This document shows positions 8,101 to 41,164 of a stretch of DNA of 41,412 nt, one piece after another. The position numbers were made by a program, and so were the translations under genes. The stretch's first letter is position 1; each line of letters opens with the position of its first letter. The stretch covers positions 1-41,412 of the forward strand of contig JAGGZE010000085.1 in the NCBI GenBank assembly GCA_021162205.1, written 5' to 3'. The DNA is from a bacterium. Its GTDB lineage: Bacteria; UBP14; UBA6098; B30-G16. The notes beneath the pieces are model-generated. The model did not search any database, had not been told where the DNA came from, and saw only the letters and a list, made by a program, of their open reading frames with translations.

Positions 8101-11100
8101 ATAGCAAATTTAACTGCACTCGTAGTAACAGGGAATACAAGTGTATCCGTTCCAGGAGGAACATCGCTCAAAATGCTCATTCTAAGTTCTGAACAGGTCA
8201 GGTCTTCATTGTCGATATAGATATTGCTATACTCATCTGATACATAAACATCGGGATAGAATCGTGAATAAATTCTAACCTCGACACTGGCATATCTCGT
8301 TCCAAGACCGGCATCGACAGCGAGGTCGAACGAATCACAAGGAATTCTTGCGAAATAGTATCCAGAAACACCATCATACCAGATATCTGTCGATGTCGAA
8401 ACATTATCGATTGTATAATGTTCCGCCGATGGTGCAGTCGGGTCTAATGATGCCCATATTGTATCGTGGAAATAGACGAAGAATACAATACTATCTGTGA
8501 TTGTCGGGTCGAAATCGAATGCGTTAATCTCGTTGCAGAAACTAACTGGAACGAACGCTGAATCACATTCAAAATAACCATCCTCATAGCCGGTTATTAC
8601 ATTAGGACCGCCGCCATAAGGAGTTTCCCAACTATCACTTTCAGAATTATCAAATTGCTCTGGTGTAGGCCAACCCATCGTCGGTGGATGATACTCGGTC
8701 TCGATTCTGAATGGATAAACATGGTCGACCATATTATTGCCAGCATTATCATCGAATCCTTGAATGCGAAGATTTGCAACACCATCCATAAGATTACCGC
8801 CTGCAATAACCATATAGCCAATCCATTCACGGTCGGTATTCCAACCAGGTTCGATATCGGAAAGACTTACATCTGGATGCTCGAACGAAATCGCATCTCT
8901 ATCCGATGGAACAGAACGCCATATCGGACCCTCACCGACAAGACTATAATCGGCATAGAGTTGAGCGAGTGGATAGAATCCTGCGCCTGTCTCGATTGGA
9001 ATAACAGGGAACCAATGCGTCCAACCCTCTGGCTGGAATCTAACAATGTGTCCTGTAAGCGGGTCGATATCGCGCATATCCATATTATCATTGAACCAAA
9101 TTCTCACGAACACAGTGCAAAGGTCGCCGAAATTAAATACACCGATAAGACTGTCCTGAGTGGAAACACCAGAATCCCACGGAAGACGGAACAGTGAAGG
9201 ATCCCATTCGGTGAATCCAGTGATGCCACCGATAACAGGTGTCGAATCGATTGGAGCACCTGTTGTGTCATAAGTATAATCCCAACCAGTAGTCTCACGA
9301 ATAGCAGTCGTAAATGCAATACCCTTAACGAAAGGTAATCCATTATCGAGACCCATCGGATGTGATTGGACAATCTGCTCATTTCCAAGTCTGTCCTGAA
9401 CAATAGCTTCTGCCCAAAGTGAATCTGCAATGAACAGTGTATCTTCATCGAGTATTGTCTCATAAACCGTGCCTGTTTCGGTATCTACACCATGGTAAAG
9501 TGTAATCGGGCTTGCGAGTATCATTGCTCTCGCAACCTGATTCTCATCGGCACAGTTGTGAATTTCTTTATACTCATTTGTATATAGATAATAAGTGCCA
9601 GGATTATAAACGAGTTCGAGTGACTCATCGAGATCGGGATGATAAAGATAGCGAAGAACATCGCTTCCCTCGACAACCGCTGGCAATGGCCAGGTAGTTG
9701 TCCAAGCAACATCCGTTCCACCACCCGAACAACCGACACCACTATCGATAATAGATTCGAGACGAACTCGAATTATATGATTGGTATCGTGTCTATATAT
9801 ACAGTTCACTTCTTCATAACCTGTGCCAGCCACGAGCGATGAGAAACGAGCAGCAGGTGGTTCCATATCCACTCGATATGCAAACGAATAGTAATGATAA
9901 TCTGCAATCGAATCGTTATCGACATAACCATCCGGCAAATTGAACTGGTTCGCATTTCTTGTGGCAATTCTAACAATAACAACGATGCTGTCGTTATTGA
10001 GGAATCCAAACACAGGAGCATCCCAGCTGATGTAGTTCGTATCTCCACCAGCACTAAGATTCTCATGACGATATGTAGATGGGTCGGATGTCGGGTCGAT
10101 TCTCAATACAGGTCCACCCCAATAAACATTAGTATCTGTGCTTGCAAGAACCCAGCTTGTTGTAACGGTATCGTAGAACATCACGGAATCGATAAGTGTA
10201 TCATAAACCGCACCGAGTTGATTGATAGGTCCGATTTGAAGAATTCCACCATCGACACAACCGTGAGTTTCGAGAGGAATCGTATCGCGAAGTGGTGTAT
10301 AGTGCAGCCAGCAATGTTCACAAGTGCAATCATACCAATCCTCATAGCTCCATACCTGTGTTCCAGCACTGTCGAACAACACTACACGGGCATACGGTGA
10401 ATGATTAACAACCGAATCGCTATATGGATGGTCACCACCGAGACATTCCCAGACTATAGAATCTGTGCAAGTCTGAATCTCGAATGTAATGAAATTAAGA
10501 CCCTTCGTCCAATCATCGAGCTGCGGGTCTGTTGTATAAGATGAAACAAGTCCACGCGAAATAATCGCATCTGCCGTATCGGTATCAGAAATTGGATTGC
10601 TTGGAATTACCCAATCATATCCAAGAACCTGGTCCATCTCTGCATACATTCCAGCAAGGTCTGGAGGATAATTAAACAGTTGTGGTGGGAATACATTCCA
10701 TCTCACCCAAGCTGAATCATTGAACCAACGAACCTCGGTTACATCGAGACTCGGCTGAACAACAAATGTCTCGTTGTGAACCTCATCCCAATTAGGATTC
10801 TCAAAATCACATCTTTGAGTATATGTCCGAGCAATAAGTCCGTTGCAATCATAATTATAAACAATCCCACCAGCACCGGCATAAGTATGAGCCGTGCATC
10901 GTTGACCTCTAACCGTAATCCAGGTATCATACTGGTCACAGGCATCGGTCGGGAAAGTGAAACAATCTTCATCGTGATACCAAGCATAGTAATCTGGACC
11001 TGATGCACCCGTGTATGGACCGACCCATGGTTCTGGTCTGGCTGTTGCGGGGAACCAAGGAGTGTTCGGTTCATCACCTGCGAGTATTTTAACATTCACA

Positions 11101-14100
11101 GTATCGTAAGGTTCGAAGAAATGGCAATCATAAGGACCATCACTGTCCCAGGAAAGAGTCAGGATAGAAGCGCGTTGAGGGTCATCCGCATCGCGCTTGA
11201 GAGAAACCTTAAGTTTCCTATTATCTCGAACCCAAGTGGTGCAGCAAGGAGATGGGTTGACACAATAAGCCATATCATCGCCCCAATATCCTGTGAAACC
11301 AGTTCCCGGACAAGATGTAAGATGATTTCCATCATGATAGACCAATGTAGATTCACCGACAGCGAGGTCGTTCACGAAGATGGTATCGCTGTTGTTGACA
11401 CTATCACCATCACAGTCCTCATTATCGGTAGTAGTAAGGAACAGGTCGATTGCCCCAATATTCGCAACATGTTCATCACACCATAATGGACCGACATGGT
11501 CAGAAATATCTGTAATTTTATATTTTGCCTCGAATGGGCACAAACTAAGCTGAGTAACAACATAAACCGGCGGTGTCGGGTCGACATAGAATGTGAACCT
11601 TGCAACCTGACGGTCATTAACTAACGGGTCTGGCCAAGCATCCGGGTCGAGTGTGTCTACTGCCCAATTCATACCTGGAACAAAATCCCTGAATGGGAAA
11701 TAATCTTTAGTCATACCATCATACCAAAGACCATCGGTAGATTCGCCACCCTCACAGAAAGGACAAGGACCGAATCCTGCCGCAGCATCTGTGCAAGAAG
11801 TATGTGCATTATCGGGAGTATATACAGTCACACAAACTTCGTCGCCAGGACGGAATTTTAATCCTGTCGGGTCGGCGGTCGGGTCGAATACGACACGAGT
11901 TCCCCACCATTCATCCGTTGCATTGTGATATCTGATTTTTTCAATCACAAGATTCTGGTCGCTGTTCACAGTATTCGGTGATGTTCTCGGATGACCGATA
12001 GAAGCGGTATGAATCGTGAAATTACGACCGCTCGCACCATTATATTGTGGATGCCAACTGCCATCGCAACCGCGAACTTTTAGATTCATTATAATAGAAT
12101 CTGAATTAACACCTGCAACACCATAATATCTTGGATTATAACCATCGGAAATTAAGTCGTTGTAATAATCGTGTCTATCGACATTGTTGAAACCGATTTC
12201 ATCGAATAAATCGACAGTAATAACCTGAAGTGTATCCGAAGTTACCCAATTATTCGGTGGATAAAACAGCGAATCGGGTGCGGTCGGACCGACAAGGTCG
12301 ATTCTCAAAATGCCGAGTGTATCGGGATGATAACCGAGAGCAGCATAACCAGGGCAACCAAATGCAGCTGGGTCCGCCATAACAGGAACATGGTTTTCTT
12401 CCATAGTGTTAGTTCCATAATTGGGGTCGTTTCCATTATAGCTGAATCCTGCGGCTCCGCACCAGCTTGCATCGCCAGATACCTGAAGGTCGATAGAACC
12501 AAAATCGAGGTCTGTGGGTTTCTGTGAACCCTGACCGAAATCGGGGTCGTCGAAGAATCTTGTGAACTCGACATAAACCTTATCGCCAGAACCTAATCTG
12601 AATAGGTCGGCATCGCCACGACGGAATGGCTCGAGTGTGTTATATATATTCTCGAAATTCACATAAAGTTCGCCACCCTGACCATTATTGTCTTCATCAA
12701 AATACACGCCGGGAGCAGATGAAACCATCGTTCCCCCACCTGGAGTGCAAAGACAAACATCGTAAGGAATAAGGTCGTCTTGCGTAACAGTGATTACATC
12801 GGTTCCAGTAGGAGCAAAGAAACCGGTCTCCTCAGAGCCGACGCCCTGACGAAGAATAGTGAATGTGATTTCAAAATCTCTCAAATTGAAACCGGAACCA
12901 CCCTCACCATTTGGATATGTAACTCCGTGATTCGTAACATCGTGAACATTGGAATATTGGTCATAAACACGAATGTGGAACATTGGAAGCGAATCGGCAA
13001 GCCATGTATAAGGAACTTGAGTTCCCTCGATAACATCGCTTCTGCGATAATTCGGTCCCGAACACGGAATCGGAAGAGTTCCATAATTGAAATATTCCTT
13101 CGTATCGTCATCGAGCCAATCATTGGATGGATAGCTGTTTGTCGGGCAAATAAGCTCTGCGGTCGGCGCAGAAAGGTCCACAACAAACTGCCAATTTACT
13201 TCTGTCCAATGCATAGGATAAGAATTGTAATCTGTTAATTCAGCGAAAACACCAGCACCAAATTCACAAGTATCGAATTGTGTATGGTAATTTCGGTTGA
13301 ATGCTCGAACAGTAACCTGAACGATAGAACCATCGAGGAAATCGGCAAGTTCATCCTCACTGCCATTGTTTCCAACGGCAATCCAGAATGAATCCAGACC
13401 GCAAGTATCGCGCAAATCGTGAACAACACCGATTTCGTGAGTCGCCACAGTTACATCTGTCCAATCGAGTTCATAACCACTGTGAGCGATACTCACAGGC
13501 GGACAACTTCCAGTGCTGTGGTTGTGAACACAGGTCGGAGGAATTCCAGTAGAAATCGCACCGAGCCAGCCATTACCGTGTCCACCATTATAAGTTTCAG
13601 GTGCGATACCATGAGCATGGTCCGGAAATTCCAGTGGATTCCAGAAAAATACCGAGTCGATACGGCAGGGGAAACCACCGCCATTCATATATCGAATCTC
13701 GACTATAACATAATCTACACAAGTCTGCTGGTCCTTTGTTTTGAAAGAAATCAACTGTGTGGAGTCAGCAGTATAAATGTAAAGGTCGCCATCTGCATGC
13801 ACAGGGTCGGAAATCGAACCCCATTCGTGAGTTGTCGCAGGGTCGAAACTATAAGAAGCCGACATTCCATCGACACCCTGAAGGTCCGAATGTGGACCAT
13901 TTGAACCGACTCTATTGTCGGGATAAAGTGCGAATACATAAGGTGGAATCGTATCCTGTCCGATAATCTGTTCCGCCTTGCTCCATCGTTGAGCTTCTGG
14001 AGTGCTTGGAACAGGATTATCTGGCTCGACTTCGACATGACCCAAAGGTGGCAAAGAACGGTGGTTTCTATCATCGTCTATATAACAATAAAAATCATCG

Positions 14101-15092
14101 GGGCCGGTGAAACCGACATAGAAAGTATCCATATCGGAGATACCTTCGATACCACCACCATTGGTTATACAACCATGACATCCTGTTGTTTGAAGCACAA
14201 TCCAAATTCTTCGGAAAGGAAGATATTCAGAATAACCGAGAACAGATGGAATTACAATCGAATTCTGAAAATAGACTACTGTTTGCCAACCGTAAAGTTG
14301 ATGACCATCAGCAACCCTATCGAGTGCTGGAACACGAATCCATCTATTGATAGGTGTAACACCATCGGGACCAAAAGTTGCTGGAAGGGTATCGAAAGTC
14401 CATGTAACAGCCGTGGGTTCACCCTGGTCGATATTATAAATTCTCTGGTCCACACCGAGTTGCTCGACAACACCATTTATATCGGTCTCGTCGAATATGT
14501 CGTTGAGCGAATGGTCGGTAACATGCCATTCATCGACATAGAACTGAACACCAGTGTAGTAATCTTTCGCCGAATCGGGATTGGAAGCTATATATGTAGG
14601 ATAATACATATCATAAGCATGCTGAGAGTTAATCGGTGCAATATCCTCGTTAGGGTCGAAATCCTGAGTGCCCCAAACAGTTAATTTCATACCGGCAACT
14701 CTGATTTGGTCCGTTGCGGCACGAAGGTCCATTCTGAGAACCGCTCTATCGGAACGGACACGAACCAAATCCTCATCGGGTGTAGATTCCATATCTATTC
14801 CCCACAGTCCATACACAGGGGTTTCCTCGATACTCATAGTAGGATGGTCTTGATAACCAATCCACTCATTAGCTCGAGCTGGAGTATAGCTACTTATTAC
14901 CGAGAAATCTGGAAGATACCAACTCGGAATTTGAGCTACACCGCCGGGACCTGTGCCTGGATACGGAGGCGTCCCCTCGACAATGTTGAATACATTAAAA
15001 TATTGCCAGTCACTTCCAGTCTGGGCGGAAACCGCACCAAACATCAGAAGAAAACTAACGAGCACTACAACAGCTACTCCTCTGCCTTTCAT
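5160..15092 (-). CDS. Giant secreted surface protein with T9SS-type C-terminal sorting domain
   Basis: ORF given as 5160-15221. The start at 15092 (MKGRGVAVVVLVSFLLMFGAVSAQ, signal peptide) is preferred because GGGAG lies just upstream. C-terminus has FPNPFNAATVINYQLPEKANVRIEVFDLSGHKVNTLV...GIYFYKITAGSFKDTKRMILSK. Confidence 0.85.
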   Translation of the reverse strand: MKGRGVAVVVLVSFLLMFGAVSAQTGSDWQYFNVFNIVEGTPPYPGTGPGGVAQIPSWYLPDFSVISSYTPARANEWIGYQDHPTMSIEETPVYGLWGIDMESTPDEDLVRVRSDRAVLRMDLRAATDQIRVAGMKLTVWGTQDFDPNEDIAPINSQHAYDMYYPTYIASNPDSAKDYYTGVQFYVDEWHVTDHSLNDIFDETDINGVVEQLGVDQRIYNIDQGEPTAVTWTFDTLPATFGPDGVTPINRWIRVPALDRVADGHQLYGWQTVVYFQNSIVIPSVLGYSEYLPFRRIWIVLQTTGCHGCITNGGGIEGISDMDTFYVGFTGPDDFYCYIDDDRNHRSLPPLGHVEVEPDNPVPSTPEAQRWSKAEQIIGQDTIPPYVFALYPDNRVGSNGPHSDLQGVDGMSASYSFDPATTHEWGSISDPVHADGDLYIYTADSTQLISFKTKDQQTCVDYVIVEIRYMNGGGFPCRIDSVFFWNPLEFPDHAHGIAPETYNGGHGNGWLGAISTGIPPTCVHNHSTGSCPPVSIAHSGYELDWTDVTVATHEIGVVHDLRDTCGLDSFWIAVGNNGSEDELADFLDGSIVQVTVRAFNRNYHTQFDTCEFGAGVFAELTDYNSYPMHWTEVNWQFVVDLSAPTAELICPTNSYPSNDWLDDDTKEYFNYGTLPIPCSGPNYRRSDVIEGTQVPYTWLADSLPMFHIRVYDQYSNVHDVTNHGVTYPNGEGGSGFNLRDFEITFTILRQGVGSEETGFFAPTGTDVITVTQDDLIPYDVCLCTPGGGTMVSSAPGVYFDEDNNGQGGELYVNFENIYNTLEPFRRGDADLFRLGSGDKVYVEFTRFFDDPDFGQGSQKPTDLDFGSIDLQVSGDASWCGAAGFSYNGNDPNYGTNTMEENHVPVMADPAAFGCPGYAALGYHPDTLGILRIDLVGPTAPDSLFYPPNNWVTSDTLQVITVDLFDEIGFNNVDRHDYYNDLISDGYNPRYYGVAGVNSDSIIMNLKVRGCDGSWHPQYNGASGRNFTIHTASIGHPRTSPNTVNSDQNLVIEKIRYHNATDEWWGTRVVFDPTADPTGLKFRPGDEVCVTVYTPDNAHTSCTDAAAGFGPCPFCEGGESTDGLWYDGMTKDYFPFRDFVPGMNWAVDTLDPDAWPDPLVNDRQVARFTFYVDPTPPVYVVTQLSLCPFEAKYKITDISDHVGPLWCDEHVANIGAIDLFLTTTDNEDCDGDSVNNSDTIFVNDLAVGESTLVYHDGNHLTSCPGTGFTGYWGDDMAYCVNPSPCCTTWVRDNRKLKVSLKRDADDPQRASILTLSWDSDGPYDCHFFEPYDTVNVKILAGDEPNTPWFPATARPEPWVGPYTGASGPDYYAWYHDEDCFTFPTDACDQYDTWITVRGQRCTAHTYAGAGGIVYNYDCNGLIARTYTQRCDFENPNWDEVHNETFVVQPSLDVTEVRWFNDSAWVRWNVFPPQLFNYPPDLAGMYAEMDQVLGYDWVIPSNPISDTDTADAIISRGLVSSYTTDPQLDDWTKGLNFITFEIQTCTDSIVWECLGGDHPYSDSVVNHSPYARVVLFDSAGTQVWSYEDWYDCTCEHCWLHYTPLRDTIPLETHGCVDGGILQIGPINQLGAVYDTLIDSVMFYDTVTTSWVLASTDTNVYWGGPVLRIDPTSDPSTYRHENLSAGGDTNYISWDAPVFGFLNNDSIVVIVRIATRNANQFNLPDGYVDNDSIADYHYYSFAYRVDMEPPAARFSSLVAGTGYEEVNCIYRHDTNHIIRVRLESIIDSGVGCSGGGTDVAWTTTWPLPAVVEGSDVLRYLYHPDLDESLELVYNPGTYYLYTNEYKEIHNCADENQVARAMILASPITLYHGVDTETGTVYETILDEDTLFIADSLWAEAIVQDRLGNEQIVQSHPMGLDNGLPFVKGIAFTTAIRETTGWDYTYDTTGAPIDSTPVIGGITGFTEWDPSLFRLPWDSGVSTQDSLIGVFNFGDLCTVFVRIWFNDNMDMRDIDPLTGHIVRFQPEGWTHWFPVIPIETGAGFYPLAQLYADYSLVGEGPIWRSVPSDRDAISFEHPDVSLSDIEPGWNTDREWIGYMVIAGGNLMDGVANLRIQGFDDNAGNNMVDHVYPFRIETEYHPPTMGWPTPEQFDNSESDSWETPYGGGPNVITGYEDGYFECDSAFVPVSFCNEINAFDFDPTITDSIVFFVYFHDTIWASLDPTAPSAEHYTIDNVSTSTDIWYDGVSGYYFARIPCDSFDLAVDAGLGTRYASVEVRIYSRFYPDVYVSDEYSNIYIDNEDLTCSELRMSILSDVPPGTDTLVFPVTTSAVKFAIEGSMIQEADYVDIVLINMLTGLEVPVTGGYIPVSDIPAPDTIWYNGADSVLEYTWNCYGILIPGIYTVEWRVTNEIAIQSGVTSPTGSNTVQHNTCCTRDYFLVPRESFVARGDNFTDALMRTSCNYPTQPASDDIYPWTDEEFYPDYPAWVEIDSTIVDARAYVHRFQITTFNNPDYTSGSTDPFIRDYIEQGGYMGDSLYVIFEVFAGDSLTDSIWMDIHDEFGGDISGSNRALHLSFGIDDTVCITDCLGADHCYFIYSWTVDDQDNRYDGPVEIDVRLWEHPVGSPTVAVSTDNPTYVLLDTYDPEYKIDLLRYAGGAYTTMDWCYNDSLPGEHIWVTNADTILIEATWLQTIFDQAPTAEGYISYDQYSHTRNWDFLRMTIDGMPNHGYDTDDPNDLLEARLWHTTLDPYYFTYSFWYQPDGGYDILPTDVDRWNYFNNNNYEYLWTVSNDPYGNGLAKILIKGRDAAGNILDYDEAENSRSEGKFVLIDTDPPTIDGDLVTVTVGSFEADIDAIDDNLLGGGYYDPVNGTYVLVTVYDTTGDTLLAGPFAVGDDGSVEMQPATFTQDTVLVCATDLAGNQACALVPVQPELVCCSWNLCPGWNYVALSVVPDDPTVDAVFGQQVYTMCDTHLIQYDVTDTLDLEYGYMVFASAETTIEVCGTPYSATDFMVHNLCPGWNLIGAPWTDVPVTAISTDPAGVLLTDNVLEYNCDAHAYQPVLTLNHCKGHLVFVDEACSLWIDTSKTVTSLKKRFASPLWSAKLNVSGINDDFNRTLTIGVADGGTDNFDAGADVVIPPAFPDEMDARIGSYYVDDYRAEGGKITWTLVSRGEITLTADLSDVPDEYDVYIQYKEDLINLGEVGELTLPQGSYNVVVARRAIPTAYKLGQSFPNPFNAATVINYQLPEKANVRIEVFDLSGHKVNTLVNDEQTAGYRSVVWNGTDDGGSTVASGIYFYKITAGSFKDTKRMILSK

Positions 15093-15346
15093 ATTCTTCT
15101 CCCTTCGGAAAAAGGTTTTACTTACTAACATCGACACTAACTTACCTACTGTGTCTACTCCCACATCATACCTCCTGTTTGGATATTTTGTTTCTTTGTC
15201 TCCATAATCGAATAATTTCAAAAATTATTCCCAAAAACTTTATCACATAACAATTACTTACCTGCCTCTATCACTTTCAAACTGCGAATTAAAATGCTTT
15301 TCACTAAAAATATTTTTCCGCTCTATCAAATATCAAAAACAAACAG

Positions 15347-15382
15347 AACTGCTCTCCCTCGACATCAGGGAGCAGTTTTTTT
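15347..15382. terminator. Rho-independent terminator hairpin, possibly bidirectional
   Basis: AACTGCTC(T)CCCT ... AGGGAGCAGTT followed by T-run; lies between the minus-strand genes. Confidence 0.6.
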
Positions 15383-15525
15383 ACTTCCTCGAACAAAGTG
15401 TTGGCACAATCTATTAAACCCATTTGTTATTGTCAAGCCATTTTTGAAAAACTTTTTCATTTCAATAAAATTTAATTAATAATACGCATAACTCCCTATA
15501 ATGTCAAGGAGAAACTTTTATCACC

Positions 15526-17055
15526 TCAGAAACCACTATACCAAAGCCTTGCCACAAAATCCATCTTAAGCTCCCATCTATTCTCATCATTTTTATCCAC
15601 ATTTTCGAGGTTTGAAATCTTTTCAAATTGAAATCTATTATATATCGAAAACTGACCAGAAAAATTCTTAATATCCCAATTTAGACCATCGAGCCAAAAA
15701 GATATTTCAAATCCCGTTCTACGCTCGACCACACCGGTCGGGAAATTTTCCGACCAATCGGTATCTAACCAGGGCTCTGTCCATATATCATCGATTCTAC
15801 CCTCGCCATTACGAATGTGATAAAGTTCTAAATAACCGCTATAAAATGAACCATATAGATTTGTCCTCGTCGAAATCTTATCGAAATCGTTTCCTAATAT
15901 AGCTCCCAACGGTTGATTTTCATAAAGATATCTATTCCACGGTTTTTCCTGATTAAATGTTCTCGGCAGCACCATTTCATATCTAAGCGATTGAGTTATA
16001 AAAACAGGTTTCGACATTAACGAATAATCCGCTTGAACAGCGAAACCGGCCTCGGTAGGTTCTCTATCCTCGGGAACTTCGTGGTCGATTTGAAAATCGT
16101 CTAAAATTCCTTCGGCGCGAAATCTAAAAGGCGGCATCAAAACTTTCATATCTAAACTCCAAAGTGTGTTGTCATCCCACGGATGATTCAATTGCTCGCC
16201 GTGAAATGCATAGAAAGGCATCAAATAATACATTTCGATTTGTCTGCCCATTCCTCCGAAAAGCATTAATTCCGAAAAACCGACCTCGAAATGTGTCCAT
16301 TTCAGTCGAACTCGATGAACTGCTATATACCTATTATATATATCCTTTATAGTATCTCGAATTTCCACATAATTATCGAGCTGTCCGATAGACCAAAATA
16401 CATTCAGATGATTCCCAAAATTGAATTCCGTCTGAATTCGCTCGTAAGGTTTATTTCCCGAAAATGCCATTCCAAGTCCTGTTTTAAGATAATCTTTCCC
16501 GATTTGAAAATAAGTATTTTTTCCACTCCAGCGAACATAAACCTGGTCGGATTTACCGGCAACTCGCGCCCAACGTGCGCCATAATAATTCGGGTTGGAA
16601 TAATATCCACTGTCCATACGATATACCCCGATAGACGACCATCTGCCATAAGTTCCGCCGACACCGAAATTCATTTTACCGAATTTATCGAACTTATCGT
16701 TCCATGAATTCTTCCTAAACCATACGCCGGGTGTCCACAGTGCAAAGCCATTATTTTTCACCTCGAATGGCGACAATAATCTATCGGTTCGTTCGGTCCA
16801 GAAATCATCGGAATTTGAATCGATAACATTTCGCATCTGTCTCATCGTATATGGGCTTATGCTATTTAATATCGGGACTTCCCCTCTCAATTCGAGTTCC
16901 TCGAAAAGCCAGTCGAGTTTATAATCGGGAAGCAGAACAAAATCGGGATTAGGTGAATCGAGCATATCGAGCAGTTCATCTATTCCACCGACATCCAATT
17001 CAGCACCGAAAACAAACAGAAAACCGATTATGATAACTGCAAAAATTTTCCTCAT
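15526..17055 (-). CDS. Outer-membrane beta-barrel protein, capsule-assembly Wzi-like
   Basis: 509 aa with signal peptide; strand-rich sequence with GMGRQIEMYYLMPFYAFHGEQLNHPWDDNTLWSLDMKVL, similar to Wzi-like barrels. Confidence 0.55.
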   Translation of the reverse strand: MRKIFAVIIIGFLFVFGAELDVGGIDELLDMLDSPNPDFVLLPDYKLDWLFEELELRGEVPILNSISPYTMRQMRNVIDSNSDDFWTERTDRLLSPFEVKNNGFALWTPGVWFRKNSWNDKFDKFGKMNFGVGGTYGRWSSIGVYRMDSGYYSNPNYYGARWARVAGKSDQVYVRWSGKNTYFQIGKDYLKTGLGMAFSGNKPYERIQTEFNFGNHLNVFWSIGQLDNYVEIRDTIKDIYNRYIAVHRVRLKWTHFEVGFSELMLFGGMGRQIEMYYLMPFYAFHGEQLNHPWDDNTLWSLDMKVLMPPFRFRAEGILDDFQIDHEVPEDREPTEAGFAVQADYSLMSKPVFITQSLRYEMVLPRTFNQEKPWNRYLYENQPLGAILGNDFDKISTRTNLYGSFYSGYLELYHIRNGEGRIDDIWTEPWLDTDWSENFPTGVVERRTGFEISFWLDGLNWDIKNFSGQFSIYNRFQFEKISNLENVDKNDENRWELKMDFVARLWYSGF

Positions 17056-32653: not shown

Positions 32654-32720
32654 GCGTTGCAGGGAATGTCCCGACTTGTCGGGACAGGAAAGCAACGCAC
32701 AAAAAACACCCGAATGGGTG
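32654..32720. repeat. Single copy of the nested-hairpin element, abutting the stop codon of the next minus-strand gene
   Basis: GCGTTGC AGGGAAT [GTCCCGAC-TT-GTCGGGAC] AGGAAA GCAACGC ACAAAAAA CACCC-gaat-GGGTG, then TTA (minus-strand stop) at 32721. Confidence 0.85.
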
Positions 32721-33188
32721 TTAGTCGCTTATGATGAGGAGTGAATTTTCGATACCATTCTCGAAATCTTTAAGTGGATTATTTGGGTCCTCGACCCAAC
32801 TCGCTCCTTGGTCGATTACAAATTTATACTGGTATCTTCCCGATGGCAGTGGCAGAACGATTTCCCATATTCCGTCTTTATTGTCGTCTCGCATAATACC
32901 GGCAGATGGGTCGAATCGGTCGTATTCTTTGGTCCCGCACCAGCCATTGAAATTACCTGCGAGATTCATATAGTGTGCTGCTTTATTCTCATACTGGAAA
33001 ATTATATAGTGCATATTTTTCCCTGCGGAACTCATTTTGGCGGTATCATCGATAATACCGGAATATTTCGAGACATCGATTTCGTGAGGTGGTCGAAGTC
33101 GATTTTTAATTAAATTCCCGACACATCCAGTAATCGAAAATATCAGTAATACTGTAATAATAATTTTGCCGGTCGATATATACTTCAT
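32721..33188 (-). CDS. Lipoprotein with CBM48/AMPK-type glycogen-binding-like domain
   Basis: 155 aa; lipobox-like FSITGC; HYMNLAGNFNGWCG...DGIWEIVLPLPSGRYQYKFVIDQGASWVEDPNNP. Confidence 0.8.
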   Translation of the reverse strand: MKYISTGKIIITVLLIFSITGCVGNLIKNRLRPPHEIDVSKYSGIIDDTAKMSSAGKNMHYIIFQYENKAAHYMNLAGNFNGWCGTKEYDRFDPSAGIMRDDNKDGIWEIVLPLPSGRYQYKFVIDQGASWVEDPNNPLKDFENGIENSLLIISD

Positions 33189-33204
33189 TGTTCACCCCGA
33201 TATA

Positions 33205-35559
33205 TTAAAATCTCACACTTGCGAATAAATTTATTCCTTGAAACAGCGACATTCGTTCGAGTGCATCGATATACGATATTCCATTGTCGGACATCGTATC
33301 GTAAATCCATTCGGTTCTTCCTGTATATTGCCCTCGCAGATTATATGGACGCACGCCTGTGGAAATCTCGAATGAAATTCCATTTTTCGGTTCGTATAGA
33401 AATGCAAAATACGGTGCAAGAATCGATTTATCGACAATAGCTGTCGAATCGGTTATCTCGACACCGGAAACATAATCCTGTTTAATTTTTTTGTATAGAA
33501 TATCTCCCTCGACTGCAAATTTCTTCGTCAGATAGAATTTCGTATTGAAAATCAAATCGATTCCACTGAATTTCAATCGTTCGCTATCGCATTCCCCCGA
33601 TGAAATTATCGCCATCGATTTCAGCATCAATCTTTTATCGAATAAATTCAATTTAATATCGGGAGCGACACCGATATAATTATAATCGTCCTTATTTTTC
33701 TCATCGAATCCCTCGATATTCGCAGAAACAATTTTTCTATCGAATCCGACAGCACCTGAGAATTTAGTTCTATCGAATTTGCTCATCGTTTGGAATTCCA
33801 ATGTCGGTCGTCCTGTCGAACCATCGTTATGCTGTGGAATTATATATGTCTGGTTGCTGTCCATCGGGTCGTAATGCTCGATTTCAGCGGAACTTTGCAC
33901 ATAGAAATTCTTTGGCAGTTCGATTTTCAAACCGCCGCCGGCAATATATCCATTTTGCGTGCCGAGAGTTATATCCAATGTGGAATCGCCTGTGTTATCG
34001 TGATTTTCACGATTGCCGGCATCGATACTCGAACGATAATTCCAATTTATAAATTCACCATATAGCGAAATGAAATGAATCGGCACGATTGTCAAATCTC
34101 CACCGATACCTGTTTCGAGTGCTCCGAGGTCGAGCCAATCGGAATGAAGATTATGGTTGTCGTAAATCGAATCGAATAAGCTGTATGTTATCTCGGATGT
34201 CGGAAGCCACAACTGGTCTCGGTCGATTCTGAAATCTATTGCAGGCGATATGAAACCGAAATCGTTCGAGATTCTTCCAGCGAATACATCGGTGCCGTAA
34301 TCAGAAAAATCTGTCGGCTTATCGGCTCGAGCAACAGTTCTCATCCAGAAACCGACAGGTCTTCGCCCGAACCGATTTGAGAAATCGAGCGGGTCGGTAT
34401 CGAGTGTCCAATCTTCGAACACATTCCCAGCGAGTAAATTTACATTCGTTCCTTTGAAAATCGTTCTTTTCACAGTCGTTCCGAAAATGATTCCAGCGCA
34501 TCCAAGCCCGAATTTCTGCGGTTTCTCGAATGTGGGTTCATCATATTTATAATCGCCGACAAGTCCGAGCGGGTCACCGAGTATAAATATTTCTCTGTTA
34601 TAAAAGCCATCGAGTGCGAAATCTTGCGTGTTCAGTGAAATCCCGACAGAATCTATATGCAGATGAGCTTCATAAATTTTTTCGGCATCGAAAGTATTTA
34701 CATCGAACGAGCCGAATGCAGCGACACCCTCGGCAACATTAACCCGCAGGTTTATATCGACTTTGGCAAGCGGACGATAAAGTTTCCATCGATTGTCACC
34801 GTAGTATCCTCCTGGAAGGTCTCTATCGCGGAAAGTGAGCATATTAGTTACGAAAAGCCCGCTGAACAAAATCCGCGACGATGCAGTCGAATTGGGAAGC
34901 TTTTTCGCACCATCCGGATAAACTGCTGTGCCATCGCTGGCGATTTTAATGACCGAGTTGCCGAAATCTCCTCGCACAGTAGGATTCATCGGGTCGGTTG
35001 TCCAGTTGCCATCGACAACGAACTTATACTCGTATTCGCCGGGTTTCAGTTCGATTTTAGCGAACCAATTGCCATCGGATTGTTTTGTCATCTCTATTCC
35101 AGTGGGATTCCAATCTGTGAAATCGCCGGTAAGAGAAACCTCGCGAGCATCTGGGTCGAAATATGTGAACACTGCCTTGCCTTCGCTCGTTTTGGGTTTA
35201 TTCGATTCTGATTGAACTTTTTGCCCGACCGGTAAAACCTCGACAATCGAATTTATCCCGCCGTAGCCGTCATCTATTTTCTCGGGATTGTCGGTATCCT
35301 CTTTCCAGTTGCCATCGACAACGAATTTATATTGATATTTACCCGGTTTCAGTTCGATAACCGTTCGGAAAACACCGTCATCGCCCTTTTTAAGTTCATT
35401 AGCATCCTGCGACCAGTTATTGAAACTGCCACCGATATAAACCGTTTTCGCCGATGGGTCGGAGTATGTGAACTCGACTCCCTTGTCGGTGATTTCATAT
35501 CCCGCAAAAAGTAGGGAAAACACTTGTATTATAGTTATTATTATGAGAACTATTTTCAT
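33205..35559 (-). CDS. Outer-membrane beta-barrel protein with two N-terminal CBM48/AMPK-type glycogen-binding-like domains
   Basis: 784 aa; signal peptide; KTVYIGGSFNNWSQ...PGKYQYKFVVDGNWKEDTDNP and REVSLTGDFTDWNP...PGEYEYKFVVDGNWTTDPMNP; then strand-rich barrel ending in VRF. Confidence 0.8.
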   Translation of the reverse strand: MKIVLIIITIIQVFSLLFAGYEITDKGVEFTYSDPSAKTVYIGGSFNNWSQDANELKKGDDGVFRTVIELKPGKYQYKFVVDGNWKEDTDNPEKIDDGYGGINSIVEVLPVGQKVQSESNKPKTSEGKAVFTYFDPDAREVSLTGDFTDWNPTGIEMTKQSDGNWFAKIELKPGEYEYKFVVDGNWTTDPMNPTVRGDFGNSVIKIASDGTAVYPDGAKKLPNSTASSRILFSGLFVTNMLTFRDRDLPGGYYGDNRWKLYRPLAKVDINLRVNVAEGVAAFGSFDVNTFDAEKIYEAHLHIDSVGISLNTQDFALDGFYNREIFILGDPLGLVGDYKYDEPTFEKPQKFGLGCAGIIFGTTVKRTIFKGTNVNLLAGNVFEDWTLDTDPLDFSNRFGRRPVGFWMRTVARADKPTDFSDYGTDVFAGRISNDFGFISPAIDFRIDRDQLWLPTSEITYSLFDSIYDNHNLHSDWLDLGALETGIGGDLTIVPIHFISLYGEFINWNYRSSIDAGNRENHDNTGDSTLDITLGTQNGYIAGGGLKIELPKNFYVQSSAEIEHYDPMDSNQTYIIPQHNDGSTGRPTLEFQTMSKFDRTKFSGAVGFDRKIVSANIEGFDEKNKDDYNYIGVAPDIKLNLFDKRLMLKSMAIISSGECDSERLKFSGIDLIFNTKFYLTKKFAVEGDILYKKIKQDYVSGVEITDSTAIVDKSILAPYFAFLYEPKNGISFEISTGVRPYNLRGQYTGRTEWIYDTMSDNGISYIDALERMSLFQGINLFASVRF

Positions 35560-35571
35560 ATTATATCTCCC

Positions 35572-37032
35572 TTAAAAATATACTTTCAAGTATGCTTTAA
35601 TCTGTTTGTTTATTTCCTGTGTTGCATTAAAATTAACAAAATCGTCGTCGTTAGTCAAATCGTCGTTTGAATCGTCTGGATTGCCAAACTCGATGAAAAA
35701 ATCTGTGTTCGAGAATGCATGATATTGCATTTGAACAAAAACGGTCTGCCGAGATTCCGAAATCTCGTTGACATTCATCGCTCGCATATAAAGTTTCCAT
35801 TTCTCCGAAAGATTAGCATTAAGTTCGACACCGAACGCCTGAATCTCATACGGTGTGCCGAAATCTTTCCAGCGAAATTGCAATCTGACCTTAGCAAAAT
35901 AATCCTCGAATGAAATCTCATTGAAAAGCGTTGGATATATTTTATACGAATCATAATTTATATCCCAGCTGCGATAATATTTATAATATACTTTATATCT
36001 GACATCGTGAATAAATTCGATATATAATTCATTATACCAATCCTGACAGCGATACATTGGATTAGTTCTACTTTGCGGGAATGCTCTATTGAGCGGCGCA
36101 CGGTATTCATCATAACTCGATGTGAGATTTATCGCCTTAGTCGGGAAAAAATACGATGCGTTGATATTAAAACCCTGTTCATTAAATTTTTGCCCCTGGT
36201 CGTAGTCGTTAGATAGATACGACCTAAAATTTTCGCCGATATTTCGGTAGCTGAGTTTCAGTTCGATATTCGATATTCTGATATTTCGCATTTCAGCTTC
36301 GATAGCGAGATTTTTTGGATTTTCAGATTCATCGGGAATTCTGCTTTTTACAATTTCTGCAGCGCATCCAATATCGCCGAATCGTTTAAGGAATGGAACC
36401 GTTCGCCCGAGTGAAAAATAAGCATCGGTAGATACCACCGTATTGAAATTCTGGTCGCTTCCCGCCCAATCCTTGCGAGCGAGTGTCGATGAAATTCTGA
36501 ACTTATCGGAAAATAGGGGCAGATTCCATCGCAGAACATTAGCATCCTCACCACCCGATTGCGAATAGTCCGAATGGATAGCTTTGCCATAGATTTTCCA
36601 AAAATTCCAAAAATCCGTGCGAATTCCCTGTGCATTGCCGCCATCGTTGATTGTCCACTGTGAAACGAGTTCCATCAATCCCTGCGAGAACCAGAATCTA
36701 TTCTCCCTGCTAAATGCTATAAACTCTAATCCTTTGTCCCATCGAAATTTAGCGTGAGCTTCGAGCATATCGTAAATCGTGTATCGTTCGGCACGGTCAT
36801 TGTTGAGAAATTTATCCGATTCTGCACGAAATTTCAGATATGCTTCGATTCCACTATACGGTGTTCCAAGAAATCGCAGTTCGAGATTATTGTGCGGCTC
36901 GTTCATTTTCCATCGCAGATTGCCATCGATTGTGGTTATATTCTCGTAATAGCCCTCGATTTTAACCGATGCGAACGCAGGCAAAACCGCAACGGCAAAT
37001 AGTAAAATAAATATGTATTTTTTAATGTTCAT
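35572..37032 (-). CDS. Outer-membrane beta-barrel protein (porin-like), unknown substrate
   Basis: 486 aa; signal peptide; alternating amphipathic strands; C-terminal YLKVYF. Confidence 0.6.
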   Translation of the reverse strand: MNIKKYIFILLFAVAVLPAFASVKIEGYYENITTIDGNLRWKMNEPHNNLELRFLGTPYSGIEAYLKFRAESDKFLNNDRAERYTIYDMLEAHAKFRWDKGLEFIAFSRENRFWFSQGLMELVSQWTINDGGNAQGIRTDFWNFWKIYGKAIHSDYSQSGGEDANVLRWNLPLFSDKFRISSTLARKDWAGSDQNFNTVVSTDAYFSLGRTVPFLKRFGDIGCAAEIVKSRIPDESENPKNLAIEAEMRNIRISNIELKLSYRNIGENFRSYLSNDYDQGQKFNEQGFNINASYFFPTKAINLTSSYDEYRAPLNRAFPQSRTNPMYRCQDWYNELYIEFIHDVRYKVYYKYYRSWDINYDSYKIYPTLFNEISFEDYFAKVRLQFRWKDFGTPYEIQAFGVELNANLSEKWKLYMRAMNVNEISESRQTVFVQMQYHAFSNTDFFIEFGNPDDSNDDLTNDDDFVNFNATQEINKQIKAYLKVYF

Positions 37033-37046
37033 TTTTCAATAAAAGT

Positions 37047-37916
37047 TCAAAGTCCGAATTTCAATGAAAACTGATACCTATTTCCAAGAGTCCTTTGCGA
37101 AAAGAAACCGAAATCGAATGCCCATTTTTTAGCAAAAATTCCCATACCGAGACAAAGTCTGCCCTGTGAGAAACCACTGCGAAGTGCAATCGCATCGAAA
37201 AATGTAATCTCGCTACCGAAATTTATTTTTGTATCGGAGAAATCGCCATCGGAACTTTTAGCATCGAGTGAGAACAGTAAAAATTTCTGGATTCGATACG
37301 ATGTCCCGATTGTGATTGTGCGGTCGAGTTCATCGGCATCCTCGGTAGTCGAAATCAACGATACTTTCGGCGAGTTCACATTTTCGACAGTGCCAGAAAC
37401 ATTCATTCTGCCCGATGCTTTCCATAAAATCCCGAAATCGCCGGTTAAAACCATTTTACTCGGTGAAAATGCAGGGTCGCCATATTTCTCGTAGCCATCG
37501 GCGGAAACGATGAAACTTTTAACCGATACACCCGCCGAGAAATTATTAAACAATTGTCTCGCATAGTCGAGTTGCACAAGATTTTCACTATAAGTATTCG
37601 CCACAGCCAATCTATTCCATCCGAGACCGAATGCACCGATTTTCGAATTAAATGCAGCAGTGGATGAATACGATGACAATCCCTCGACAGAATACATCAT
37701 TGCATAATTTGCTGAAACCTCGATTTTTCTATCGGATAAAATTCCCGCAGGATTGATTAAAACAGCTTCGGCACCGGTTCCGATAGAATTGAATGCTTCA
37801 CCGAGAGACATCGCTCGTGTGCCCGAATTTGTGTAAATATCCATCGCCCATAAATTCACAACAAGCACGAGAATTGCGACTAAATATGTTTTTTTTATAC
37901 TCATTTTTTTTAACAA
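37047..37916 (-). CDS. PorV/PorQ-like outer-membrane protein
   Basis: 289 aa; NSGTRAMSLGEAFNSIGTGAEAVLINPAGI motif typical of PorV/FadL-like proteins; C-terminal FSLKFGL. Confidence 0.75.
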   Translation of the reverse strand: MLKKMSIKKTYLVAILVLVVNLWAMDIYTNSGTRAMSLGEAFNSIGTGAEAVLINPAGILSDRKIEVSANYAMMYSVEGLSSYSSTAAFNSKIGAFGLGWNRLAVANTYSENLVQLDYARQLFNNFSAGVSVKSFIVSADGYEKYGDPAFSPSKMVLTGDFGILWKASGRMNVSGTVENVNSPKVSLISTTEDADELDRTITIGTSYRIQKFLLFSLDAKSSDGDFSDTKINFGSEITFFDAIALRSGFSQGRLCLGMGIFAKKWAFDFGFFSQRTLGNRYQFSLKFGL

Positions 37917-37954
37917 TATCGAGACAAACTTTTTTCAAAAAACTGCAACTATTA

Positions 37955-40900
37955 TCATTTAATTATAACCAGCGCTACATTTTTTCTATCGTATCGCTCA
38001 TTTCCCTCGAACACATATTTGAACCGCACCGAAAGCAAATAAATTCCCATCGAGCAGTTATAATCGTCGTCATTTTTGCCATCCCAGATAATATTTTCAT
38101 TTCTTCCACACCAGACCTGATAGTTTCGAGCGAGTGTCCGCACAGGTTCGCCATTTATATCGAAAATATCCATATCGACATTGCCATCGTAGTTTAGAAT
38201 CAGCGTAATATTGGTTTCATCGCATATCCCATCGCCATTTGGCGAAAATGGATTCGGCGAAATATCGACTCCGGAAATCGGCTCATCGGAATATTTCAAT
38301 GTTTTCGACTCGAACAACCCAAAAATTGTGAATGTATCTATATTGAAATTCAATTCTATCGAATTAGAATGAATATCGTTCGCTCCACCCTGTGAAATCC
38401 AGACATCGGTTTGGGAATTTAATTTTGCTATCACAAAATTATTTTCATCATCGGAATCGAACTGCGAATCGGAATTTTCAAAATAATGGAATGACAAAAA
38501 TTGCGGGCTATCGAATGGCGACAAACCATTATCGGAATAGATATTCAGCATTCTGAATTGCACTCGATTCTCGATATCGGGCGATTTGAATTCATAATTA
38601 TCGGGAATATCCCAGTTCGCATAGCTTATAATAATCGTATCGATTCCCGCTGAAACATTACTTCGGTCGATTTGCAGAATCGTGCCATCGGGGAATTTTT
38701 CTGTCATCGTATCGGCAAAAGTGTTTGTCGCAATGCGATAGTTCACCGTATCGATTTCGGTAATCGGCGGAACAGCTCTTGTCGGCACAGGCGATACAGT
38801 CGAATATGGATACAAAGGTGCAACAGGTTCGGCAGTATCGGCGTAATCCTGCGGCTCGTATGCGATATTTCCCGATTGGTCCTCTGCCTCGAAATAGAAC
38901 TCGAAAGAATCTGAGTTGAGCGAATTATGCGGTATATCACCGACGAATGAATTTGTCAACTCTCTGAAACCGAGATTTACCTGCGTTTGCCAATCCGTTT
39001 CGCCGATATTCCGCCATAACAGTTTCGCCGATTTCACAGATACATCGTCCTCGATATTTACCTCGATATATACGCCATCTGTTTTAGATAGATGCTCGAT
39101 AGACGATGGAATTTCGTAATCGATAGATGGCGGCGAAATATCGTAACTTCGATGAGATTCCAACACAACAGGTGTTTCGATTGTGTAGTCGAGCATTCGC
39201 TCCTGAGTTCGCCCTTGTTCTTTGGGATTGCCAAACTGGTCGAGACCGGGCATCGCGACAATATCGATAATATTCGGGTCGATATCGCCATCGGCACCGC
39301 CATTGAATTGCCATTGGTTGTTCGTGCCGGCATTAACCGACCGAACGCCCTCGACACCCTCGCCATCGTGTCCGAGCATCAAAACGAGAAAATCCCATCG
39401 GTCGAACTGCGATGTGTCCGCCTGACCGAGATTATCTACAAATGCGGTTTTCGGCACTGTGATGAAAATCCTGTTATTTGTTATGTCTGTCTCGAAATCG
39501 AGCGATGACACATCCTGCGTGAAATTCGAGAAAATATCCTGCCCATTCGATGCTAAAATTCCTTTCCACCAGCCATCGATAGAAATCGCGAAATCCCATG
39601 CATCGGTAGCGGCGAAATCTGCATTTCTATTCGGCAGTGCGACTCTGGCTCCATCGCTGTGGCAGTCGATATAGATGTCTATTTTTTCGAGATTCATCGG
39701 CGGAAAAAATGGACTCCACCAGACAACCGACGAATCGGGAATTTTTACGACTCCAATCTCGAACTGGTATGCACACTCGCTTGTAAGGTCACGGATTTTT
39801 ACATATTTAATATCGAATGCACCATCGACAAACACCTGCTCGGTGGGATATAGATACCATCCAGGACCGTAGTCGTCGCCGGTAGAATCGTAGACCTCGC
39901 GGACTACACCTGCTTGTTCGAGTGTGATATTCAATTCTACAGGTTCATTTTGAGTAATCGCAACATTTTCGATTGTCTGCCCGATATAATCGGTCGATTG
40001 TGGAGCGATAACAATATCGTAAATCCCTGTGGGAAGATGAGTTATAGCATAATTTCCATCGTCGATTTCTGTTGTGTCGCCGATACCGTAAATAAATTCG
40101 CCTGTTTCATCGGTTGCGTATATTATCGTGGGGAAATCCGATGGCGAGATTGTGCCGTAAATCATTCCCCTATATGGTTCGAGTGTAAAATTCAAATTGT
40201 TTTCGCCGGATGAAATCACAAAATCTTGAATTGTATCGGGGACAAAACCGTTCGCATTTGCCACAAAATCGTATGTCGAATCGATTCGAACTCCTGCAAG
40301 CAAATAGTAGCCATCATCTGCGGATGAATTAGCTGTCGCGAAAAGTTCGCTTGTTCCGTCGATATATGCCTCGACCCAAGCCACAGGATAAGGCGGTTCG
40401 GCGAACATCGTATCATCGAACGAGACAGTTCCCGCAACAGCCGAGCCAGAATAATCTGGAATACCATCGCTGTCACTATCGACAACGATTGTGATTAAAC
40501 TATCGAGCAAGTTCGGTCCCTCTCCGCCATTCACAGATGAATTATCAGGGACAGCATCACAGGCACCGTAATCGTCGCCGCCAGCGATTATACCGACAAT
40601 TTTCAATCTTGCGCCATCGGGAACTATATTTTCTGCATCGGGATAAATCGAACTCCACCGGACAGCGATTTCCTGCTTATACGAACCGTCGGTGGCAACA
40701 TTGCGTCCCGATATTATTTCCACACTCGAACTGTCTGCAATCGAAAATACCGATGGAACTGCACCATTCCAGTCAGCGAGCATCAAATCGATACCGAGCA
40801 AATCGGGAAATGTGATATTCCGCGGATATGCTCCGGTATATCCTCTCGTGCTGTTGAAATCGTTCACTCCGCCATCGATACCCGTTTCGATATAAACGAG

Positions 40901-41164
40901 CATAACATTATCCGAGACGGTGAATTCCAATCCGATATAGAGAAAGTTAGCATCCCATGTAAGCCAAATATTATCGAAATCGTTCCCAGTTCCCCAATAT
41001 GAATCGTCGTCGGGGTCGTCGGCTAAAAGTTCATCGCTGTCCCAATCGTCGGGAGAAATCGAAATTACGCCATCGATTATCGGTGAATTATAAGGGTTCG
41101 CTAACAAAATTAGCGGAATTAAAAACAAAGTGAATAGAAAAAAATTTATGATTTTAAGATTCAT
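37955..41164 (-). CDS. T9SS-type secreted protein with CBM9-like N-terminus, carboxypeptidase-regulatory-like repeats, glucodextranase C-terminal-like domain and FlgD-Ig C-terminus
   Basis: 1069 aa; PIIDGVISISPDDWDSDELLADDP...FDNIWLTWDANFLYIGLEF; VREVYDSTGDDYGPGWYLYPTEQVFVDGAFDIKYVKI (Glucodextran_C-like); PNPFSPNGDGICDETNITLIL...GIYLLSVRF. Confidence 0.8.
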   Translation of the reverse strand: MNLKIINFFLFTLFLIPLILLANPYNSPIIDGVISISPDDWDSDELLADDPDDDSYWGTGNDFDNIWLTWDANFLYIGLEFTVSDNVMLVYIETGIDGGVNDFNSTRGYTGAYPRNITFPDLLGIDLMLADWNGAVPSVFSIADSSSVEIISGRNVATDGSYKQEIAVRWSSIYPDAENIVPDGARLKIVGIIAGGDDYGACDAVPDNSSVNGGEGPNLLDSLITIVVDSDSDGIPDYSGSAVAGTVSFDDTMFAEPPYPVAWVEAYIDGTSELFATANSSADDGYYLLAGVRIDSTYDFVANANGFVPDTIQDFVISSGENNLNFTLEPYRGMIYGTISPSDFPTIIYATDETGEFIYGIGDTTEIDDGNYAITHLPTGIYDIVIAPQSTDYIGQTIENVAITQNEPVELNITLEQAGVVREVYDSTGDDYGPGWYLYPTEQVFVDGAFDIKYVKIRDLTSECAYQFEIGVVKIPDSSVVWWSPFFPPMNLEKIDIYIDCHSDGARVALPNRNADFAATDAWDFAISIDGWWKGILASNGQDIFSNFTQDVSSLDFETDITNNRIFITVPKTAFVDNLGQADTSQFDRWDFLVLMLGHDGEGVEGVRSVNAGTNNQWQFNGGADGDIDPNIIDIVAMPGLDQFGNPKEQGRTQERMLDYTIETPVVLESHRSYDISPPSIDYEIPSSIEHLSKTDGVYIEVNIEDDVSVKSAKLLWRNIGETDWQTQVNLGFRELTNSFVGDIPHNSLNSDSFEFYFEAEDQSGNIAYEPQDYADTAEPVAPLYPYSTVSPVPTRAVPPITEIDTVNYRIATNTFADTMTEKFPDGTILQIDRSNVSAGIDTIIISYANWDIPDNYEFKSPDIENRVQFRMLNIYSDNGLSPFDSPQFLSFHYFENSDSQFDSDDENNFVIAKLNSQTDVWISQGGANDIHSNSIELNFNIDTFTIFGLFESKTLKYSDEPISGVDISPNPFSPNGDGICDETNITLILNYDGNVDMDIFDINGEPVRTLARNYQVWCGRNENIIWDGKNDDDYNCSMGIYLLSVRFKYVFEGNERYDRKNVALVIIK

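Follow-up and report, generated by a model that had tools for sequence, protein, structure and literature searches.

Polysaccharide entry across the outer membrane is understood almost only from the SusCD systems of Bacteroidota and the porins of Proteobacteria. In the type IX secretion system (T9SS) of P. gingivalis and F. johnsoniae, PorP-like barrels hold cargo with a type-B C-terminal domain on the cell surface, and the sprB and sprF genes are adjacent (PMC9143113). The locus described here lies in contig JAGGZE010000085.1 (assembly GCA_021162205.1), a stretch of 41,412 nucleotides, hereafter the window, which represents one whole contig (G000:C43) of a bacterial genome of 2.57 Mb in 185 contigs (G000). 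It consists of five open reading frames (ORFs) on the reverse strand, in the transcription order T9, PORV, BAR, FUS and LP, with gaps of 38, 14, 12 and 16 bases, which bears out the tightly spaced same-strand arrangement described in an earlier note on this DNA. The cluster quite probably constitutes one half, at the outer membrane and the cell surface, of a Sus-independent acquisition system for an alpha-glucan, i.e. starch, glycogen or pullulan. Gene content, gene order, co-occurrence with enzymes and an importer, and the absence of SusD were read directly from the sequences.

Domains were annotated with Pfam and NCBIfam and judged against the curated cut-offs. Two AMPK1_CBM/CBM48 domains were identified in FUS at about residues 29–109 and 126–207 (E 1.8e-34, 118.3 bits against a cut-off of 26.8), and one in LP (E 8.6e-7, 29.5 bits, same cut-off). 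All three keep the W, K, W and N positions when aligned to the glycogen-binding domain of AMPK beta1 (1z0n), which we take to be the sugar contacts. Invariant residues in the alignment of FUS include Trp49, Lys78 and Asn103 in domain 1, and Trp150, Lys179, Trp186 and Asn201 in domain 2. The domains of FUS and LP are thereby supported as predicted alpha-glucan binders, in agreement with the alpha-glucan specificity proposed in the earlier note; E-set domains devoid of carbohydrate-binding aromatics, a case which that note had raised against itself, were not found, the Trp positions being kept. The SusF_SusE family also matched FUS, weakly (E 1.3e-4). The lipobox of LP (...SITGC) is kept in relatives, the orthologue in a genome of the same class (G009) is 60% identical, and no acidic stretch follows the lipid-bearing Cys. 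Behind its CBM48 domains FUS continues into a beta-rich region that ends in a terminal Phe, a pattern from which the C-terminal region is probably an outer-membrane barrel. Outer-membrane barrels normally have both termini in the periplasm, and the FUS CBM48 domains, being N-terminal to the barrel, should therefore face the periplasm, which is more likely than display on the surface. Surface display, as suggested earlier, would thus hold mainly for the T9SS-tailed T9 and probably not for FUS.

Within the class, searches with FUS and BAR located the cluster in eight genomes (G000; G004 of the same family; G009 and G012 of family f3; G013–G016 of family f4), and the cluster was not found in nine others. 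In G009 and G012 the order T9-PORV-BAR-FUS-LP continues unbroken into GH57, MalE and MalF, the next genes being MalG and MalK in G009, and in G012 those of a CBM48-GH13 amylase and of MalK. The GH57 of these runs is an 856-aa CBM48-GH57-CBM20 protein. In G013 and G014, FUS and LP are separated from the GH57 and MalE that follow by the gene of a short, unassigned single-pass membrane protein of ca. 180–210 aa (L050 8952–9506; L051 9566–10207). All eight cluster-positive genomes encode CBM48-GH57, and seven of them MalE. The co-occurrence of CBM48-GH57 with the cluster (8/8 against 0/9) returned a naive Fisher p of 4e-5, in which the relatedness of the genomes overstates independence, and in which the negatives were judged by the enzyme's CBM48 part; GH57 without CBM48 may therefore occur in those nine genomes. 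In the G012 locus (L049, G012:C102), a frame change interrupts both BAR (1220–2618) and GH57 (5286–7623), probably through assembly error, because the pieces are 65–92% identical to intact orthologues.

A survey of 386 genomes with the BAR profile gave 28 positives, 20 of them outside the class. These 20, together with G044, reached via FUS, and a Krumholzibacteriota contig, retrieved with the BAR alignment after a contig search with the single BAR sequence gave no match, make up 22 distant loci. None was chosen by its enzyme genes, and all their ORFs were scanned with profiles built in this work. The 21 numbered distant genomes represent 13 families (f28, f32, f69, f71, f72, f75, f102, f129, f136, f138, f161, f176 and f217), and share only the domain rank with G000. 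By name, the carriers include metagenome-assembled genomes (MAGs) deposited at NCBI as 'Zixibacteria', a Krumholzibacteriota MAG, and other bacterial MAGs, among them ones from vent sediment. BAR is followed by the CBM48-barrel gene in all 21 distant loci in which the contig continues, PORV is immediately upstream of BAR in 15, and the complete five-gene order is kept in 12 of the 22. Conservation of the order is more than chance, because it extends across many families, and with G009 and G012 added it disposes of the case, also raised in the earlier note, that no relative keeps the gene order. Mal importer and/or GH57/GH13 genes are within the same fetched stretch in 15 of the 22 distant loci; the Krumholzibacteriota contig contains GH13, T9, PORV, BAR, FUS, LP, MalE, MalF, MalG and a T9SS-type GH57-like gene in one run. 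In G044 (L063, G044:C21; 6814–8190) a MalG-like protein has a CBM48 inserted after its first transmembrane helix, ahead of the permease core, at a site which, from the known topology of MalG, we take to be the first periplasmic loop. The same locus encodes, beside the BAR-FUS module, a protein of 864 aa in which CBM48 occurs six times (13192–15786).

Counterparts of these enzymes and importer components were identified in G000: GH57 (C26:9335–11914, 71% identical to the GH57 of G009), MalE (C20, 68% identity), MalK (C73, 69%), CBM48-GH13 (C157, 61%), and a GH57-like protein with a T9SS tail (1246 aa; C185; L086 20–3760; 61%). GH57, and probably GH13, start with signal-peptide-like stretches, and GH57 is without a T9SS tail. 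The protein on C185 is named GH57-like because only Pfam ties its type to GH57 (24.9 bits against a cut-off of 21.2, with the G009 copy below it): phmmer gave no match, no PDB relative was found by sequence, hhalign against the other GH57 was non-significant, and the sole match in a profile search was a 4-alpha-glucanotransferase (E 0.37). Full-length relatives are present also in the cluster-negative G005 and G007, and the protein may be a surface-located enzyme from a distant branch of GH57. Its type of tail is shared by a 1545-aa protein of the window (381–5018, reverse strand), which combines a Por_Secre_tail T9SS signal with repeats of the PEGA and carboxypeptidase-regulatory-like types. 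Inside the five-gene cluster itself, no catalytic domain, SusC/SusD pair or ATPase was detected with Pfam and NCBIfam, and no glycoside hydrolase, although hydrolases are present in the loci of many relatives. The earlier description of a cluster without an obvious hydrolase accordingly holds for the cluster itself but misleads as to the system, the genes of which are elsewhere in G000 and beside the module in relatives.

The non-Sus character of the locus was upheld. SusD (PF07980) was detected in none of the 18 class-set genomes, and in none of the 21 distant carriers over the cut-off, with a positive Bacteroides control, and neither BAR nor FUS matched a TonB plug or receptor in Pfam. The outer-membrane location proposed for the cluster is likewise supported. 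BAR had no Pfam or NCBIfam family match, and no PDB match by sequence. In the AlphaFold2 model (pLDDT 70, moderate) it has about 22–24 strands and no plug, and Foldseek returned only large barrels (TonB receptors, ushers, LptD) with TM <0.55. It is not similar to maltoporin (LamB), as no sequence match was obtained and the model has ca. 24 strands instead of the 18-strand fold. On this moderate evidence from the model, BAR suggests itself as a candidate glucan pore, because it would form a large, empty barrel without a plug.

The Glucodextran_C domain of T9 (aa 422–660, E 1.5e-36 in Pfam) is located within a region (aa 398–668) that matches the glucodextranase structure 1ug9. The C-terminal sorting domain passed the CHU_C cut-off marginally (27.7 against 27.0 bits) and was under that of TIGR04131, the tail being CHU_C/type-B-like. 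The orthologue at the same position in G009 is 57% identical. The N-terminal domain is conserved across loci, and in several distant carriers T9 is reduced to this domain and a C-terminal FlgD/T9SS-like tail; the constant part of T9 seems to be a surface binder and a tail. The translocon protein SprA is encoded in G000 at C31 (SprA_N over the cut-off). PORV matched PorV_fam (NF033709; E 4.7e-14, 52.7 bits, cut-off 90) better than PorP_fam (E 1.4e-4, 21.4 bits, cut-off 90.55), both below the cut-offs, and its G044 orthologue clears the PorV_fam cut-off with 129 bits. Within the class, a close PORV orthologue (E<1e-28) was present only in the eight cluster-positive genomes. By analogy, T9 and PORV are probably a dedicated cargo-anchor pair, with PORV shuttling or anchoring T9; this is the simplest reading, because T9 has a type-B-like tail, the PORV gene follows, and the adjacency of the two is conserved. 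The protein labels given in the earlier note thus stand for the T9SS tail, Glucodextran_C, the PorV-like protein (below cut-off), the barrel, the barrel with two CBM48 domains and the CBM48 lipoprotein; the naming of the T9 N-terminus as CBM9-like was rejected, as neither T9 nor six homologues gave a Pfam match.

Table 1. Features of the five-gene cluster and its 3' flank, with positions in the window.
Feature	Position	Strand	Description
T9	37955-41164	-	1069 aa; signal peptide, conserved N-terminal domain, CarboxypepD_reg-like region, Glucodextran_C, CHU_C tail
PORV	37047-37916	-	289 aa; TTG start, ATG four codons inside; PorV/PorQ-family outer-membrane barrel
BAR	35572-37032	-	486 aa; large outer-membrane beta-barrel, no known family
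FUS	33205-35559	-	784 aa; two N-terminal AMPK1_CBM/CBM48 domains and a probable barrel
LP	32721-33188	-	155 aa; lipoprotein, one AMPK1_CBM/CBM48 domain
Terminator-like hairpin	32705-32722	-	directly 3' of LP; 7-pair stem and T run; consensus scan only

The hairpin after LP is probably the end of the transcript, and promoter-like hexamers (consensus matches only) were found upstream of T9. The genes downstream of LP are unrelated and on the opposite strand: a BFD-like [2Fe-2S] protein, and apparent DHH-family, RbfA- and IF-2-type genes. Elsewhere in the window, a 3353-aa ORF (5160–15221, reverse strand), the sole Pfam matches of which form a C-terminal FlgD_ig/CHU_C T9SS-type tail, probably encodes a giant T9SS surface protein.

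For the proposed acquisition system we infer the substrate, the topology, the barrel that serves as pore and the sequence of events as follows. T9 would leave the cell through the type IX system and, anchored at the surface by the adjacent PORV, bind the polymer there, which the T9SS-tailed GH57-like protein, encoded elsewhere, may cut. Maltodextrins would cross the outer membrane via BAR and/or FUS, the CBM48 domains of FUS and LP would retain the chains on the periplasmic side, the signal-peptide-bearing CBM48-GH57-CBM20 and CBM48-GH13 enzymes would shorten them, and MalEFGK would import the products. Retention of the glucan is placed mainly in the periplasm because of the FUS topology, the CBM48 in the MalG loop of G044, the signal-peptide-like starts of GH57 and probably GH13, and a GH57 without a T9SS tail; only T9, and possibly the GH57-like protein, would be on the surface. 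More tentatively, and with rather less confidence than in the acquisition role itself, T9-PORV-BAR-FUS-LP may be an undescribed uptake machine, equivalent to SusCDEF and unrelated to it, in which the plugless BAR passes long maltodextrins drawn by the periplasmic CBM48 domains, and which could be the main route of starch entry across several uncultured phyla.

Several observations weigh against the acquisition system as proposed. In seven of the 22 distant loci, the fetched stretch is devoid of genes for alpha-glucan enzymes or an importer. In G000, the enzyme and importer genes are on other contigs and not linked to the cluster, with which they may not be jointly regulated, and MalF and MalG were not located, no separate search for them having been made. 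G001, which is 59% complete, has MalE, MalK and GH13 but no cluster. The AlphaFold2 prediction of FUS is good for the CBM48 domains and not for the barrel region (pLDDT about 20–45), and BAR is modelled with moderate confidence only. Finally, seven Plug hits elsewhere in G000 (TonB-dependent receptors) allow that another barrel carries the glucans.

The lack of enzyme and importer genes in the G000 cluster would also suit a complex for surface capture, adhesion or sensing of alpha-glucans outside any feeding pathway, as the earlier note had it; T9 and LP are pure binding proteins, and in some distant carriers (L114, L127) nothing beyond the five genes was seen in the stretch that was fetched. 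We consider this unlikely, since the presence and absence of the cluster match those of CBM48-GH57 completely within the class, and GH57/GH13 and MalEFGK are physically linked to it in many relatives. A stand-alone complex is hard to reconcile with a module that is contiguous with GH57, GH13 and MalEFGK in relatives, and with their counterparts in G000.

The E-set domains raise another question, as the NCBIfam model T9SS_plug matches FUS at aa 29–97 (E 1.9e-8, 33.8 bits, far under the cut-off of 100), and a T9SS cargo gene and a PorV-like gene adjoin. FUS and these domains could then be structural or assembly parts of the T9SS plug type, and not bind sugar. However, AMPK1_CBM fits this region with a far better score, the sugar-contact positions are kept, and the locus travels with amylases, which makes a purely structural role very unlikely; the match rather suggests that the T9SS Plug protein holds an E-set domain related to AMPK1_CBM. 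Least probable of all, and in our view barely credible, is a system that exports or remodels an alpha-glucan made by the cell itself, either a capsule or a glycogen-like exopolysaccharide, BAR then being the export barrel. Foldseek does list the alginate exporter AlgE among the many weak barrel matches of the BAR model, but the accompanying secreted hydrolases and binding-protein-dependent importer argue for uptake, and no glycosyltransferase or synthase was among the identified genes of the loci, where most unassigned ORFs are unannotated.

As a component of an uptake system present in at least 13 families outside the class, and without SusD, the module would be a second solution to polysaccharide entry, and BAR and FUS may represent a new class of glycan entry machine. 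The module would also provide a recognisable mark by which annotators could infer the use of alpha-glucans in many uncultured bacteria, and offers a testable role for the orphan BAR family and for a dedicated pair of PorV-like protein and T9SS cargo.

No description of the five-gene module was found in the open literature searched by its parts. Gong et al. (2022; PMC9727166) report an unnamed novel family adjoining GH57 in Joyebacterota, Bacteroidetes and Latescibacteria, with a suggested role in starch degradation. Like the module, that family is beside GH57; the main text neither identifies it nor describes a module, and it may or may not be BAR. With the SprB-SprF and PG1035-PorP pairs (PMC9143113), the locus shares a T9SS-tailed cargo gene followed by a barrel gene of the PorV/PorP superfamily. 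It differs in that PORV scores as PorV/PorQ rather than PorP, and in that the T9 cargo, for which we infer anchoring, is probably glucan-binding and not related to motility.

Outer-membrane entry, a periplasmic amylase, a binding protein and MalFGK import are common to the proposed system and the maltose system of E. coli (LamB, MalS, MalEFGK). In the module, however, no LamB-like 18-strand maltoporin was found and entry appears to be via BAR/FUS, CBM48 domains are on barrel, lipoprotein and enzymes, and a surface binder is exported by the T9SS. With the Sus of Bacteroidota (SusC/D/E/F/G), it has in common outer-membrane proteins for glucan binding or entry and starch hydrolases, and the SusE/SusF-type starch-binding lipoproteins resemble LP in role; the module differs from Sus in having no SusD, in barrels neither of which matches a TonB plug, and in passing the products on to an ATP-binding cassette importer of the MalEFGK type. 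An outer-membrane locus for glycan acquisition is thus of a known kind, and this composition appears to be new.

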